From Micromonospora peucetia (GTDB taxonomy: Bacteria > Actinomycetota > Actinomycetes > Mycobacteriales > Micromonosporaceae), in NCBI RefSeq assembly GCF_900091625.1, contig NZ_FMIC01000001.1, positions 1-64,000 of the forward strand: 64,000 nucleotides of DNA, given 5' to 3'. This document shows positions 6,216-45,471 of this stretch, piece by piece. The notes under the pieces were generated by a model. That model was not told the DNA's origin. It saw only the letters and a list, made by a program, of their open reading frames with translations, and did not search any database. Position 1 is the first letter of the stretch. Each line of letters opens with the position of its first letter. A program made the position numbers and the translations under genes.

Positions 6216-6390
6216 GGGATCACCTCCATCAGGTGCGGTTGGTGCAGGTCGAAACGGGGTCGCATGGGGTTGTTCCTGCCTGCCGAGGGGTGGGGCCACG
6301 GCACTCGACCCGACGTCGTCGGCGGATCGAGCACCGTGGGCTCACCGGCTCACGGCCGCCGGGCTGTGCGCGCGGCGCTGGCCGGTCGGC

Positions 6391-7854
6391 TCACGCGACG
6401 CGACCGCTGGTGAGTTCGAGGACCTGGTCGACGATTTCCGCCGGCACGGCGTTGAGGACCCGGCTGATCGTGCGCTCGGAAATGCCGGTGATTTCCTTCA
6501 GCGCGGTCTGGGTGGCGTTCCGGTTTTCCGCCCGGGCGGCCAGGATCAGCGCCACCGTTTCCGGTCGGACCTTGTCCACCTCGGGCAGGTTGGCCGGCAA
6601 CTGAGCCGGAACCGACGCCAGAGATTTCCGGGCGACGGGCCGCGCAATTTCCGGCTGCCGCCCCCCGCTGGTTTCCGCCTTCTCCTGCGCCCTGGCGAGG
6701 GCGCGACGGGTGCGCTCCAGCTCGTTGGCCACCACGTCGCGGGCGTCCTTGATCGCCTGGCTCTCCTGCTCGGCGAGGGCCCGCGCGGTGGCCTGCGCCT
6801 CGGCGAAGCGCTGCGCCTGGTCCAGCTGCGCCCGCAGCGCCCGCACCGTCTCGTCCAGCTCGGCGACCCGGTCCTGGGCGGCCTGGTTGGTGTAGCGGGC
6901 CTCCGCCAGGGTCTGCTGGTAGTCACGTTCGGCCTGCTCAGCAGCCTCGGTGAGCACCCGCACCTGCTCGGCGGTGGCCTGCTCGGTCAGGGCCCGAGCG
7001 GTAGCGGCGCGGTCCGCGGCGTCGCGGGCCTCGGCCAGCCGACCCTCGGCCACCCGCGCCGCCTCGACCGCGGCGGCAGCCCGCTGCTCGGCGACCCGGG
7101 CGGCCTCACGAGCCTCAGCGGCGGCCTGGGCGTGCTCGGCGATTTCCGCCTCCGTGACGGCCTCGACTTCCGCCCGCGTTTCCGCCTCCGAGCGCGCCCG
7201 CGTTTCCGCCTCGGCCGCGCGGGTTTCCGCCTCGACCCGAGCAGCGGTTTCCGCCTCGGCCCGCGCCGTTTCCGCCCGCGCCGTCTCCTCGGCTTCCGCC
7301 TGCGCCCGGCGCGCGGCGGCCGTTTCCGCTCGCGCCGCCCGCACCTCTTCCGCCCGGCGGGCGGCCTCGGCATCAGCCAGGCGCTGCCGCTCGGCCTCGA
7401 TTTCCGCGTGCTTCCGACCGCCGTCAAGATCTCCGAGCACCAGCTTCGACAGGAACAGGAACGCCAGCGACGGCAGGCAGGCGAGGAACTTCGCCGACCA
7501 CGACGCGTCCGCGCCGACCGCCGACAACTGCGCCGCCAGGGACAGCACCGCGCCGAACAGCAGAATCACCAGGGCGTAGGACCACAAGCTCTTGCCCTGC
7601 CGCAGCCGCTTGCGCAACGACAGCGTCGCCACCAGCGGCACCAGCTCGGAGATGACCGCGTTGGCCCACCCAAACCACTCCGGGGTGTGCTCCGGCATCC
7701 AGTGCAGCGTCCAGTCCTTCATGTGCGTGAAGGACGCCGCGAGCGCGGCCAGCATGATCGCGATAAGCACGACCAGCTTGACGGTGTCCTCGACCTTGTC
7801 CGCCCGGCTGTCCACCGGCACGTCCACGCCGCTCGGAGTCGTCTCAGTGCTCAC
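6391..7854 (-). CDS. Polytopic membrane protein with long coiled coil and C-terminal HTH (DUF2637-like)
   Basis: 487 residues. GTG start overlaps the previous stop (GTGA) and has GGGAGGTG upstream. Residues ~20-150 carry four hydrophobic helices, including LVVLIAIMLAALAASF and LPSLAFLFLSKLVLG. Residues ~160-390 are an uninterrupted Ala/Glu/Arg heptad-rich coiled coil. The last ~70 residues contain a helix-turn-helix-like unit (TALKEITGISERTISRVL). The arrangement is reminiscent of DUF2637/Spd-type spreading proteins of actinomycete plasmids, though that match is by memory of layout only. It could tether DNA to the membrane. Confidence 0.6.
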   Translation of the reverse strand: MSTETTPSGVDVPVDSRADKVEDTVKLVVLIAIMLAALAASFTHMKDWTLHWMPEHTPEWFGWANAVISELVPLVATLSLRKRLRQGKSLWSYALVILLFGAVLSLAAQLSAVGADASWSAKFLACLPSLAFLFLSKLVLGDLDGGRKHAEIEAERQRLADAEAARRAEEVRAARAETAAARRAQAEAEETARAETARAEAETAARVEAETRAAEAETRARSEAETRAEVEAVTEAEIAEHAQAAAEAREAARVAEQRAAAAVEAARVAEGRLAEARDAADRAATARALTEQATAEQVRVLTEAAEQAERDYQQTLAEARYTNQAAQDRVAELDETVRALRAQLDQAQRFAEAQATARALAEQESQAIKDARDVVANELERTRRALARAQEKAETSGGRQPEIARPVARKSLASVPAQLPANLPEVDKVRPETVALILAARAENRNATQTALKEITGISERTISRVLNAVPAEIVDQVLELTSGRVA

Positions 7855-12051: not shown

Positions 12052-12846
12052 GTGCACATCACCTACACGGCCGCCACTACAGCGGCACCGAACAGCGCCA
12101 ACGAAGACCACCTTGCCGTCGGCGACGGGTGGGCCTTGGTCTTGGACGGTGCCGGCCGATACCCCGGTGAGACAGGCGGCTGCATCCACCCGATCACATG
12201 GGTCGTTGCCCGACTCGGCATCCACCTCAGCAGTTGCTTAAGCCAGCAGCCTGAGCAGCCACTCACCACGATCGCCCGGTCTGCCGTAGAGGCCACCATG
12301 GCCGATCATGATGCGACCTGCGACCTCAGCGACCCCCTTTCACCAGGAGCAACAGGGGCCATCGTCCGGGTTCGCAAGGATCGAATCGACTGGCTGGTGG
12401 TCGGAGACTGCGCAGTAGTCATCGACCGAGGGCAGGACGGATACACGACCGTCATCGACGATCGCGTTGATCACCTACCTGATGCGCCGATCGTCGAGGG
12501 CCGAGTGCGTACCTACTCACCGGCCTATGTCGCCACCGTGCGCAACCGGCCAGGCGGCTTCTGGGTTCTGGGTGCAGTGCCTGCTGCCGCTGAGCACGCA
12601 CTGGTCGGCACGCTGCCCCGACCTGCGGCAACCCAAGTCCTACTGTGTTCTGACGGCATCTCCCGGCTAACGGAGCGCTACGGATGGGGTTGGCAGGACG
12701 TCATGGCGCTACATCAGTCCGCTGGTCCCGAGTCGCTCATCCGTGCGGTGCGAGAGTCCGAGCACAACGATCCGGATCCACAGCGTTGGCGAGGCAAGCG
12801 TCATGACGATGCGACCGTGGTCGTCATACAGGTAACTGACGCCTGA
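12052..12846 (+). CDS. PP2C-like Ser/Thr phosphatase domain protein
   Basis: 264 residues from a GTG only 8 bases after the GntR stop, so the two are co-transcribed. PP2C metal and core motifs are visible in order: NEDHLAVGDG near residue 17, LVLDGAG, GATGAIVRV, a VGDCAVVI strand near 118, LLCSDGISRL near 200 and HDDATVVVI near 252. Family members remove phosphate from Ser/Thr with two metal ions. The pairing with a HutC-type GntR suggests a signalling unit, perhaps acting on a host kinase target. The substrate cannot be read from sequence. Confidence 0.75.
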   Translation: MHITYTAATTAAPNSANEDHLAVGDGWALVLDGAGRYPGETGGCIHPITWVVARLGIHLSSCLSQQPEQPLTTIARSAVEATMADHDATCDLSDPLSPGATGAIVRVRKDRIDWLVVGDCAVVIDRGQDGYTTVIDDRVDHLPDAPIVEGRVRTYSPAYVATVRNRPGGFWVLGAVPAAAEHALVGTLPRPAATQVLLCSDGISRLTERYGWGWQDVMALHQSAGPESLIRAVRESEHNDPDPQRWRGKRHDDATVVVIQVTDA

Positions 12847-42939: not shown

Positions 42940-44717
42940 GCAGCCGGCCCGCCGGGCCGCGCGGTGGCCACGACGACGCCGGCCTGATCGCCGGTGGCAT
43001 CGCCGCCCTGGTCCTCATTCTCGCCAGCGGCGCGTGGCTGCCCGTCGTGCTGGCCCGCCCGCCCGGATACACCGGCGGCGGACCGATCCAGGTCGCCGCC
43101 GCGGTGCTACGCGGCGACATCACCTGGACCACCACCTGCACCCTCATCGCCGTCGCCGAGGTGACCGTCCTGCTGCTCCTGGCCGTCGGCGGGGCTGCCG
43201 CCTGGCGGTGGGCACGTCGGCGCCGCACCCGCGTCGACCCGGCCGCCCGCCGCATGGCCAGCCGCAAAGACCTCGCGCACCTCGGGCCGAAGGGCATCGC
43301 CGACAGCGGCCGGCGGCTGCGGCCCAGCCTCGCCGACGTCGACCGGCCCGAGGCCGACCAGCTCGGCGTGCTGATCGCCTACACCGTCGCCGGCGGAATG
43401 CCGCTGCGCCAGTCCTGGGAGGACATGGCCGTCGACATCTGGGGCCCGCGCACCGGCAAGACCACCTGCCGGGCCATCCCCGCCATCGTCGCCGCCCCCG
43501 GCCCGACCCTGGTCACCAGCGTCAAGGGCGACATCGTCGACGCCACCCGCGACATCCGCGCCGCACGCGGCACCGTGTGGGCGTTCGACCCGCAGCACAT
43601 CCTCGGCCCCAAGCAGGGCATGTGGTGGAACCCCCTGCGCGCCGTGGCCACCATCACCGACGCCCGCCGCCTCGCCGAGCACTTCGCCTCCGCCGAACGC
43701 GAGCCCGGCGTCAGCCGCGACGCCTTCTTCGACCCGAGCTCCGAGGAGTTGGTGGCGAACCTGCTCCTCGCGGCCGCCGTAGCCGGCCGCGACATTCTCG
43801 CCGCCTACCGGTGGGCCGTCAGCCCCCGCGACGACGAACCCGCGATGCTGCTACGCGAGCACGGCTTCGACCTGCCCGCCGACGCGGTCGCCGGGGTGGT
43901 CAACATGCCCGACAAGACCCGCGGCGGCATCTACGCCGGCGCGCAGAAGATGCTCATGTGCCTCACCGAACCCGCCGTCACCACTTGGGTCACCCCACCC
44001 ACCCGCGGCGGGGTCCTCGAGTTCGACCCGGCCGCCTTCGCCGCCAGCACCGACGTGCTGTACCTGCTGTCCCAGGGCGGCCCCGGATCCCCTGCCCCGC
44101 TGGTCGCCGCTCTCACCGACGCCGTCCTGCGTGCTGGCGAGCTGCGGGCCCGCACCTGCCCCGGCCGGCGCCTCGATCCGCCGCTGCTGAGCGTCCTCGA
44201 CGAGGCCGCGAACATCTGCCGGCTGCGCCAGCTCCCGGCCCTCTACTCCTTCTACGGCTCCCACGGCCTGCCCATCATCACGATCCTCCAGTCCTATCCC
44301 CAGGGGGTCGACGTGTGGGGACGCGAGGGCATGCGCAAGCTGTGGTCCGCGGCGAACGTCCGCACCTACGGCGGCGGCGTCGCCGACCCCGACTGGCTGG
44401 AAGAGCTGTCCAAGCTCATCGGCGAGCACGACGTCACGACCAGGTCGACCAGCAGCAGCGGGTCCGGGTGGGGCCAGCGGTCCGTCTCCCACGCCACCCG
44501 GCGGCAGCGGATCCTCGACGTCGCCGACCTGCACGCCCTGCCCCGGGGCCGGATGGTCGTCTACGCCTCCGGCGCCCCGCCCGCGCTCGCCCGCACCGCC
44601 CCCTGGCAGACCGGCCCCTACGCGGCGGCGATCCGCGCGTCGATCGCCCGCTGGGATCCCCACGAGCGCACCGACTGGACCCTCACCCCCGACGCCCCGC
44701 CGGAGCCGACCCCATGA
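42936..44717 (+). CDS. VirD4/TraG-type coupling protein
   Basis: 593 residues. Two N-terminal membrane helices (LIAGGIAALVLILASGAWLP and LIAVAEVTVLLLLAVGGAAA). Then the coupling ATPase: Walker A WGPRTGKTT near residue 170, TLVTSVKGDIVDATRDI, Walker B PLLSVLDEAANI near 417 and ITILQSYPQ. These hexameric ATPases bring the relaxase-DNA complex to the secretion channel. All key motifs look intact. It works with the relaxase at 32437-33933. Confidence 0.9.
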   Translation: MSSRPAGPRGGHDDAGLIAGGIAALVLILASGAWLPVVLARPPGYTGGGPIQVAAAVLRGDITWTTTCTLIAVAEVTVLLLLAVGGAAAWRWARRRRTRVDPAARRMASRKDLAHLGPKGIADSGRRLRPSLADVDRPEADQLGVLIAYTVAGGMPLRQSWEDMAVDIWGPRTGKTTCRAIPAIVAAPGPTLVTSVKGDIVDATRDIRAARGTVWAFDPQHILGPKQGMWWNPLRAVATITDARRLAEHFASAEREPGVSRDAFFDPSSEELVANLLLAAAVAGRDILAAYRWAVSPRDDEPAMLLREHGFDLPADAVAGVVNMPDKTRGGIYAGAQKMLMCLTEPAVTTWVTPPTRGGVLEFDPAAFAASTDVLYLLSQGGPGSPAPLVAALTDAVLRAGELRARTCPGRRLDPPLLSVLDEAANICRLRQLPALYSFYGSHGLPIITILQSYPQGVDVWGREGMRKLWSAANVRTYGGGVADPDWLEELSKLIGEHDVTTRSTSSSGSGWGQRSVSHATRRQRILDVADLHALPRGRMVVYASGAPPALARTAPWQTGPYAAAIRASIARWDPHERTDWTLTPDAPPEPTP

Positions 44718-45211
44718 CCCTGCCCCAGCCCGGACCGGCCGGTGACCCGGTCGCTGACCTCAGCGCCCTGCTCGGCCAACTCGCTGGCGACCCGGACGTG
44801 ACGCCGCCGGCCGCCACACCGCCAGCCGGCGACGACGCCGCACCGGAGCCGGCCTACCGCAACGTCGAGGCGTTCGTCGCCGACTACCTCGCCCACGTCG
44901 TCGAACGGCGCCTCGCCACCGGGCCGACCTCCGGGGTGAACTGGTGTCCCCGCTGGTGGGCGCACCCGGAGGCGATCTCCCGCCTGTACGCGCTGTGGCG
45001 GGCCTGGGAAACGCTACGGGTCAGCGACCCGCAGACCGGCATGAGCATCTGGTGGCGCGACCACCTCGACCCCCACCTCGCCGCGCTGGCCGCCGAGTAC
45101 GGCCCGTTCAGCCGCTGCAGCCCGGACAAGCACACTGAACCCCGACCCCTGCCCGTCGAGCCGGCCCCACCGGAGGTGCTCACGCAGCTTCCCGACGCCG
45201 ACGGCGTCTAA
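44714..45211 (+). CDS. DUF4913-like protein
   Basis: 165 residues, ATG overlapping the coupling-protein stop. A Pro/Ala N-terminus, then YRNVEAFVADYLAHVVERRL, WCPRWWAHPEAISRLYALW and IWWRDHLDPHLAALAAEYGP, matching the DUF4913 pattern as I know it. These small proteins regularly end actinomycete transfer operons; the activity is not known. Last gene of the plus-strand VirB-like operon. Confidence 0.75.
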   Translation: MTLPQPGPAGDPVADLSALLGQLAGDPDVTPPAATPPAGDDAAPEPAYRNVEAFVADYLAHVVERRLATGPTSGVNWCPRWWAHPEAISRLYALWRAWETLRVSDPQTGMSIWWRDHLDPHLAALAAEYGPFSRCSPDKHTEPRPLPVEPAPPEVLTQLPDADGV

Positions 45212-45313: not shown

Positions 45314-45344
45314 TATGCTATGATGGACACGGCACCGAGGTGCC
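45314..45344 (+). promoter_or_regulatory. Possible promoter and leader hairpin before permuted tRNA
   Basis: TATGCT and TATGAT (45314-45324) are good -10 hexamers; no convincing -35 is seen. Right after them GGCACC-GA-GGTGCC (45331-45344) can form a tight hairpin 10 bases before the tRNA 3' half. Confidence 0.35.
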
Positions 45345-45354
45345 CCATAAGTAC

Positions 45355-45433
45355 TCCGCAGGTTACGGGTTCGAGCCCCGTCGTCTCCACCAACAAGGGG
45401 ACGTAGTTCAATTGGTTAGAGCAGCGGATTGAC
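45355..45433 (+). tRNA. Circularly permuted tRNA arrangement (3' half before 5' half)
   Basis: 45355-45392 reads as a tRNA 3' half: anticodon-stem strand TCCGC, 5-base variable loop, T-arm ACGGG-TTCGAGC-CCCGT, acceptor strand CGTCTCC, discriminator A and encoded CCA. After ACAA, 45397-45433 reads as a tRNA 5' half: acceptor GGGGACG, TA, D-arm GTTC...GG...GAGC, A, anticodon-stem strand GCGGA, then TTGAC. The two halves fit one molecule: acceptor stem 7/7 (one G-T), anticodon stem 5/5. Joining TTGAC to AC gives a 7-base loop with anticodon GAC (Val). Alternatives are two broken tandem tRNAs or an attachment-site relic. Confidence 0.7.
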
Positions 45434-45435
45434 CA

Positions 45436-45471
45436 GACGAGGCCGGAGCGGACCCCCGCTCCGGCCTCGTC
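45436..45471 (+). terminator. Strong intrinsic terminator after permuted tRNA
   Basis: A perfect 16-bp stem (GACGAGGCCGGAGCGG at 45436-45451 with its complement at 45456-45471) and a 4-base ACCC loop. It begins two bases after the anticodon triplet of the 5' half, so a transcript of the permuted tRNA would end there. Confidence 0.8.

Follow-up and report, generated by a model that had tools for sequence, protein, structure and literature searches.

Circularly permuted tRNA genes, in which the 3′ half stands before the 5′ half, are reported from algae and archaea (Soma 2014, PMC3978253). Among the papers listed on permuted tRNA together with plasmids, prophages, bacteriophage or bacteria, no title or abstract opening mentions a bacterial permuted tRNA gene. 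A sequence-only reading of the DNA analysed here had also held that none such was known in bacteria, which overlooked the Y RNA YrlA, whose tRNA-like domain (Rfam RF02553) has the same permuted topology. YrlA is described as a basal stem tethering Ro plus this tRNA-like domain (PMC8394870), and a Y RNA with such a domain is reported from an RNA repair operon (PMC7790460). In some mycobacteria yrlA is present and has been read as horizontal transfer (PMC9569102), and putative phage Y RNAs have been reported (PMC12282133). Another system of this shape is the permuted two-piece tmRNA (Rfam RF04321).

Here we describe a permuted tRNA-like element in the first 64,000 bases (hereafter the window) of contig C1 of Micromonospora peucetia. 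As in the algal and archaeal genes, its 3′ half precedes its 5′ half and the joined loop would be canonical; it differs in its break at 36|37, in its bacterial host and in that joining is hypothetical, and it is not known to have a BHB motif. With YrlA it shares the T arm, the acceptor hairpin and the D arm inside a closing stem, the Levitt pair and, as in some of the RNAs beside Ro/RtcB genes, G3-U70 and an encoded CCA, whereas it has no basal Ro-binding helix, no linked Ro60 gene was found, and it instead carries an anticodon-type loop and an abutting terminator. Like permuted tmRNA it has a CCA-containing loop linking the 3′ part to the later 5′ part, and an alanine signature, but it adds a D arm and a 5-bp anticodon stem. 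We tentatively favour the explanation that it is a stand-alone non-coding RNA gene of a plasmid, a permuted tRNA mimic whose chain ends in the anticodon loop (36|37) and is probably left unligated.

Structure of the element

The element lies on the forward strand at 45353–45433 and corresponds to tRNA positions 37–73, CCA, ACAA and positions 1–36; the span first proposed, 45355–45433, had found it and fell two bases short. Sequence, alignment and covariance model delimit both halves. The 3′ half (45353–45389, positions 37–73) consists of AC, the anticodon-stem 3′ strand TCCGC, the variable stretch AGGTT, the T arm ACGGG(TTCGAGC)CCCGT, the acceptor strand CGTCTCC and A73. It is followed by an encoded CCA (45390–45392), the spacer ACAA (45393–45396) and the 5′ half (45397–45433, positions 1–36), which runs through the acceptor strand GGGGACG, TA, the D arm GTTC-AATTGGTTA-GAGC, A and the anticodon-stem strand GCGGA to the loop piece TTGAC. 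The acceptor stem GGGGACG/CGTCTCC forms 7 of 7 pairs, with G3-U70 its one G-U, and the anticodon stem GCGGA/TCCGC 5 of 5; the loop pieces TTGAC (45429–45433) and AC (45353–45354) make up a seven-base anticodon loop broken at 36|37. The sequence-only reading had seen these features correctly: a 3′ half with CCA ahead of a 5′ half with ACAA between them, seven acceptor and five anticodon-stem pairs formed between the halves, and residual loop pieces adding up to seven bases with GAC as anticodon.

A hairpin and terminator scan placed a terminator-like hairpin of 16 pairs with a 4-base loop at 45436–45471 (forward strand), which agrees with the terminator proposed two bases downstream, except that its T tail is weak. 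Upstream on the same strand, a leader hairpin GGCAC-CGAG-GTGCC (45331–45344) is present in the minimum free energy (MFE) structure of the window sequence; locus L005 has a counterpart (AGCACC-CGA-GGTGCT) and L033 a less clear one, and it was not seen at every locus. The -10-like words TATGCT / TATGAT, read from the sequence at 45314–45324 (forward strand), are a weak promoter candidate. They had been taken to make a transcription unit plausible; the words are there, but a sigma-70 scan of the window gave no promoter above its threshold, so that only promoter-like words remain.

Neither ARAGORN nor Rfam at gathering thresholds made any call in the window; the element scored 14.7 bits against the Rfam tRNA cut-off of 29 and contained no contiguous tRNA by ARAGORN. 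The MFE structure of the bare window core kept the acceptor and anticodon stems and misfolded the T and D arms (z −1.49). Since a full cloverleaf was the MFE at only two of six loci folded (L034 and L044), single-sequence folding is weak evidence.

Genomic setting

Contig C1 (96,221 bases) belongs to a 7.37-Mb genome of two contigs and is, by inference, a Micromonospora plasmid. Just upstream of the RNA is a block of conjugation genes whose final members are one for a coupling protein and, closing the block as the neighbour of the RNA, one for a DUF4913 protein (44714–45211, forward strand, by protein annotation). The mobile-element setting first suggested agrees with this. By annotation, a similar block (SCO6880 family, ATP/GTP-binding, coupling protein, DUF4913) is present on the circular 73-kb plasmid of Verrucosispora sp. 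NA02020, where the RNA stands about 22 to 43 kb away from it, according to the direction taken round the circle; the window RNA is therefore a unit of its own. Among nine loci compared, no neighbour protein was shared, and DUF4913 was not found beside the RNA at the other loci compared.

Elsewhere on the contig, a Zeta-toxin gene (PF06414, 47165–48486), 2 kb from the RNA, has a small open reading frame directly upstream, with which it probably forms a toxin-antitoxin pair. A 93-base tRNA-Arg (tcg) called by ARAGORN at 90854–90946 of contig C1 (10654–10746 of the extracted locus L065) has no recognisable T loop and is probably a false call.

Relatives on plasmids and prophage-type contigs

At least ten distinct loci, the window included, carry the permuted arrangement, and we named them class P. 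Two of those outside the window are from Micromonospora, one on another plasmid and one on a chromosome; the rest are on plasmids of Nocardia farcinica, Gluconobacter and Anabaena and on at least four IMG/VR contigs. A BLAST search of the family matched 83 of 354 Micromonosporaceae genomes, and 30 loci were opened (L003–L032): 3 were class P, 22 overlapped ordinary tRNA or tmRNA genes and 5 were others. The permuted unit was found among these only in the window, in G248 (the Verrucosispora plasmid) and in G284 (on the chromosome); L007–L010 and L023 proved to be coding sequence or isolated 3′ fragments of tRNAs. When these 354 genomes were searched by pattern, four were returned, namely the window's genome, G248, G284 and G131, the last Y-like in look and left out of the class P count. 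Four N. farcinica plasmid records, identical across the 86-base query, were counted as one locus, and BLAST of plasmids also recovered the arrangement on Gluconobacter pSJF2-e and Anabaena pANA01. Pattern scans of IMG/VR, with A73 fixed by the pattern, gave L121, L223, L263 and L311 (at least four loci). The L121 copy adjoins a phage portal gene, and some 350 bases separate the L223 copy from a gene for a tyrosine-type integrase. On the L223 phage contig, the class P element (12322–12398) near the integrase gene is accompanied by two Y-like RNAs at about 6343–6600.

BLAST of the window element against a phage collection gave no match; L223 and L263 matched 58 and 75 phage records, and the four opened were tRNA-array or Y-like. 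A first covariance model, R1, matched 382 of 396 Actinomycetota genomes, the best matches being mostly tandem tRNAs, so this was no census. Among 29 R1 loci (L071–L099), only L072, L093 and L094 were without an ARAGORN tRNA, and they look like Y RNAs. We set aside as tRNA arrays or tandem tRNAs L039, L040, L042, L043, L045, L100–L102, L104, L107, L108, L112, L113, L115 and L117–L120. L036, L038, L041, L103, L105, L106, L109–L111, L114, L116 and L334–L336 went to class Y on the strength of an outer helix, a motif or their Ro/RtcB context, a judgement made in part by eye. Ambiguous loci (L253, L298, L302, L175, L227) were left out of the count, and L263 was kept as class P despite a possible 6-pair outer helix and G37. 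L302 (G1065:C2 399180) is a permuted tRNA-like element from an actinomycete; its anticodon stem is extended to 8 bp, and its anticodon would be CGC, one of alanine's.

As the scans used fixed patterns, this set of loci is no census. Our results show that class P recurs in several phyla, on plasmids as well as on prophage-type contigs, with no neighbour protein in common. ARAGORN called no tRNA at the window, L003–L005, L121, L223, L263 or L311; class P elements escape gene finders.

Covariation between the halves

In an alignment of six loci (A3), 99.2% of 126 cells were paired and 10 of 21 pairs changed on both sides; none of 500 shuffles was as high on any of five measures. An alignment of eight loci from which the window was left out (A4) paired 98.8% of 168 cells and changed 12 of 21 pairs on both sides, which 0 of 500 shuffles reached; this control slides the partners, which destroys the signal, and leaves kinship among the loci uncorrected. 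The both-side changes include the stems that join the halves (4 of 5 anticodon-stem pairs and 5 of 7 acceptor pairs), with one anticodon-stem mismatch each in L034 and L311. The Levitt pair 15-48 fits tRNA rules in 10 of 10 class P loci (A-U in four, G-C in six). A second model, R2, made from A4 and so without the window, gave the window a score of 81.7 bits, with an E-value of 3.9e-28 for a search of 139 kb (R2 E-values being rough).

We conclude that covariation demonstrates the cloverleaf of class P, and with it the permuted fold with all arms, complete D and T arms included, that had been proposed from the window. The window element is real and conserved, and hardly a relic.

Anticodon loop and acceptor

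The joined class P loops read TTGAC|AC, TTGTC|AC, TTGTC|AT, CCGTC|AC, ATGCC|AA, CTGTT|AT, CTGAA|AC, CTGAC|AC, TTGAC|GT and CTGAT|AA. G34 is found in 10 of 10 loci, and in all nine found without fixing it (the search that gave L311 fixed U33-G34); U33 is found in 9 of 10 (C33 in L034), a purine at 37 in 10 of 10 (G37 in L263), and position 38 is never G. Across 55 rows without an ARAGORN tRNA, U33, G34 and A37 stood together in 7, all class P, and in none of the other 48, which are mostly Y-like, the class P loci having been sorted partly by this very loop; L034 and L263 are class P with two of the three letters. An abutting hairpin of at least 9 pairs served as an independent criterion: the loop was present in 7 of 20 rows with it vs 0 of 33 without (Fisher p 5e-4). 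A pattern that fixed, of the anticodon loop, only U33-G34 in the 5′ half (loci from L106 on), and whose D-loop requirement the window itself misses, gave 45 distinct matches, 39 of them overlapping ordinary tRNAs. The remaining six, two of which are L033 and L005, all had a complementary anticodon stem (4–5 of 5) and a purine at 37. The halves, though apart in the sequence, thus appear to be under constraint to build a single anticodon loop.

An assembled, proper loop of this kind suits a joined tRNA no less than it suits an open mimic. In a true permuted tRNA gene, the precursor would be circularised, or its ends trimmed and joined in the anticodon loop by RtcB, and the CCA-ACAA-G1 linker cut, giving a continuous tRNA; the window's would read GUC/GUU codons. 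We consider this explanation unlikely. It accounts for the seven-base loop Y32-U33-G34-N-N-A37, and for the likeness among the Micromonospora trio, which runs to position 36 and resumes at 37 while the adjoining bases differ. As the earlier reading had proposed, we re-joined the halves, and ARAGORN called a tRNA at 9 of 9 loci (Val GAC three, Asp GUC three, Gly GCC, Asn GUU and Phe GAA); it did the same with 3 of 3 joined Y RNA controls, so the check does not discriminate. All three Micromonosporaceae carriers have a chromosomal RtcB, but so do all 16 same-genus genomes compared, and 22 of the full set of 26, which makes its presence uninformative, and no Rfam intron or ligase gene was found at the window locus.

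The acceptor weighs more. G3-U70 together with A73 is the alanine signature. G3-U70 is found in 6 of 7 class P loci whose search left pair 3-70 free (it is absent from L037), and is kept in 8 of 9 aligned loci, two of them found with it fixed, while pairs 4–7 vary on both sides. A73 is found in 10 of 10 loci, four of them the IMG/VR loci for which it was fixed, and CCA is encoded in 5 of 10. The anticodons beside this alanine-like acceptor are GAC, GUC, GUU, GAA and GAU, none of them alanine's, so a joined tRNA would mistranslate, which is the chief objection to a role in decoding. We likewise doubt the wider version of this explanation, in which plasmids and prophages would spread a bacterial family of permuted tRNAs joined at 36|37 by an RtcB-like ligase, with alanine identity and foreign anticodons, as natural missense tRNAs.

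Comparison with Y RNAs

The topology shared with YrlA invites a second explanation, that of an ordinary Y RNA which has a reduced basal stem but still binds Ro60 and links it to PNPase, and we judge this improbable too. Against the Rfam YrlA model the window scored 34.7 bits (E 5e-6 in 401 bases), below the gathering cut-off of 69, which 0 of 9 other class P loci reached. This cut-off is strict. Six loci have Y RNAs beside Ro-type or RtcB genes, and only that of Xanthomonas (L103, with VWA and RtcB neighbours), our positive control for class Y, passed it (72.1 bits); L036 and L041 (Rhizobium), L105 (Methylosinus), L038 (Novosphingobium) and L066, on the window genome's own chromosome, fell below. 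Since five of six miss it, missing the cut-off is weak evidence, and the Y RNA family is under-detected. At L041 and L105 the RNA is flanked on one side by RtcB and on the other by a Ro60-type gene (vWA_Ro60, TROVE by Pfam), with rtcR alongside, an arrangement that is the RNA repair operon of PMC7790460; at L036 the RtcB match is in pieces. Because class Y RNAs also match R2, among them the Ro-adjacent RNAs of Novosphingobium (L038, 69.6 bits) and Rhizobium (L036, 61.0; L041, 60.3), and the chromosomal L066 (34.3 bits), that model shows kinship of form and not class. The Y RNAs L038, L106, L110 and L111 were found without fixing 3-70 and yet keep G3-U70 and A73-CCA.

What speaks against an ordinary Y RNA is first the basal stem: in the window element the longest outer helix is 4 pairs long, against an 8-bp basal helix (2536–2543 with 2647–2654) in the Y RNA on the chromosome of its own genome (L066). 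At L005, L033 and L223, outer helices of 6–7 pairs draw on arms of the leader or the terminator and were judged by eye to be unshared. The L066 Y RNA itself (chromosome C2 7198000–7206000, at 2536–2654, with CUACUUCC) stands beside a TROVE gene and is followed by a second similar start. The anticodon loop is the next point, since U33, G34 and A37 did not occur jointly in any of the mostly Y-like rows.

The distribution of Ro genes points both ways. The window's genome (G000) and G284 have a chromosomal TROVE gene, making two of the three Micromonosporaceae carriers, against a base rate of 7 of 41 relatives and 7 of 25 of the genus. A profile search found no Ro60 or RtcB gene on the window's plasmid contig, the pNF2, W02, Gluconobacter and Anabaena plasmid records had no TROVE or RtcB, and neither TROVE nor vWA_Ro60 was found anywhere in the genome of the carrier G248. 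That Ro was not found on these plasmid records (Nocardia, Gluconobacter, Anabaena), on the contig of the window or in G248 counts against a Ro-bound RNA within limits, because each probe misses genes that the other finds (vWA_Ro60 the Ro of G000 and G284, TROVE that of Novosphingobium). We conclude that the window element resembles the tRNA-like half of a Y RNA and departs from the family on two counts, its score under a strict cut-off and its basal stem.

Two-piece acceptor and relic as unlikely alternatives

In a third explanation, which seems to us quite improbable, RNase P and trimming would leave two paired strands that are charged by AlaRS and act outside normal decoding, as tmRNA does. 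The permuted tmRNA model does match the window, at 31.6 bits against a cut-off of 47, over the T arm and acceptor only; the retention of G3-U70 amid variable neighbouring pairs and the CCA encoded at half of the loci point the same way. Against this, G3-U70 may reflect descent from tRNA-Ala and is also frequent in Y-like RNAs, many of them found with it fixed, CCA is not encoded at the other half of the loci, and no coding or partner part is known.

A functionless remnant of tRNA genes or of an attachment site, whether or not left by deletion from a tandem tRNA pair, agrees with the mobile-element location and the integrase gene near the L223 copy, but is very improbable given the compensatory changes between the halves, the abutting terminator-type hairpins and the recurrence on unrelated replicons. 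The search for an intact tRNA of the same halves in the own genome also came back empty: at E up to 0.001, the DNA search returned only the element and its terminator palindrome, with no second copy of either half, and so no closely matching intact tRNA.

A proposed plasmid-borne tRNA mimic

The tRNA mimic with an open anticodon loop is thus the explanation we tentatively retain. Its RNA would be transcribed as far as the terminator hairpin and would fold as such, the halves staying unligated. At N. farcinica, L223 and L311, a -10-like word found by eye lies 6 or 7 bases before position 37 and would start the RNA within the anticodon loop; promoter scans found none at L034 and one match about 70 bases upstream at L263. 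Cleavage by RNase P, together with 3′ trimming, may then break the CCA-ACAA-G1 loop and leave a two-piece RNA, as in permuted tmRNA. Judging by its shape, such an RNA might then be a mimic or decoy that occupies tRNA-handling enzymes; candidate targets are alanyl-tRNA synthetase (through G3-U70 and A73), PNPase, and anticodon nucleases, whether those of the host or those of competing elements. To such nucleases, a loop that already has its break at 36|37 would be an analogue of the reaction product. The discussion in PMC7790460 suggests competitive inhibition of an anticodon nuclease as a possible role of the YrlA domain, and by analogy we extend this idea to class P.

If the halves are joined, these elements would be the first bacterial permuted tRNAs, and permuted tRNA genes would exist in all three domains, carried here by mobile elements. 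If they stay open, the cargo of plasmids and prophages includes tRNA mimics that have no linked Ro gene and could blunt anticodon nucleases or feed alanylation. Class P would then stand between Y RNAs, two-piece tmRNA and tRNA, and would make the origin of Y RNAs testable.
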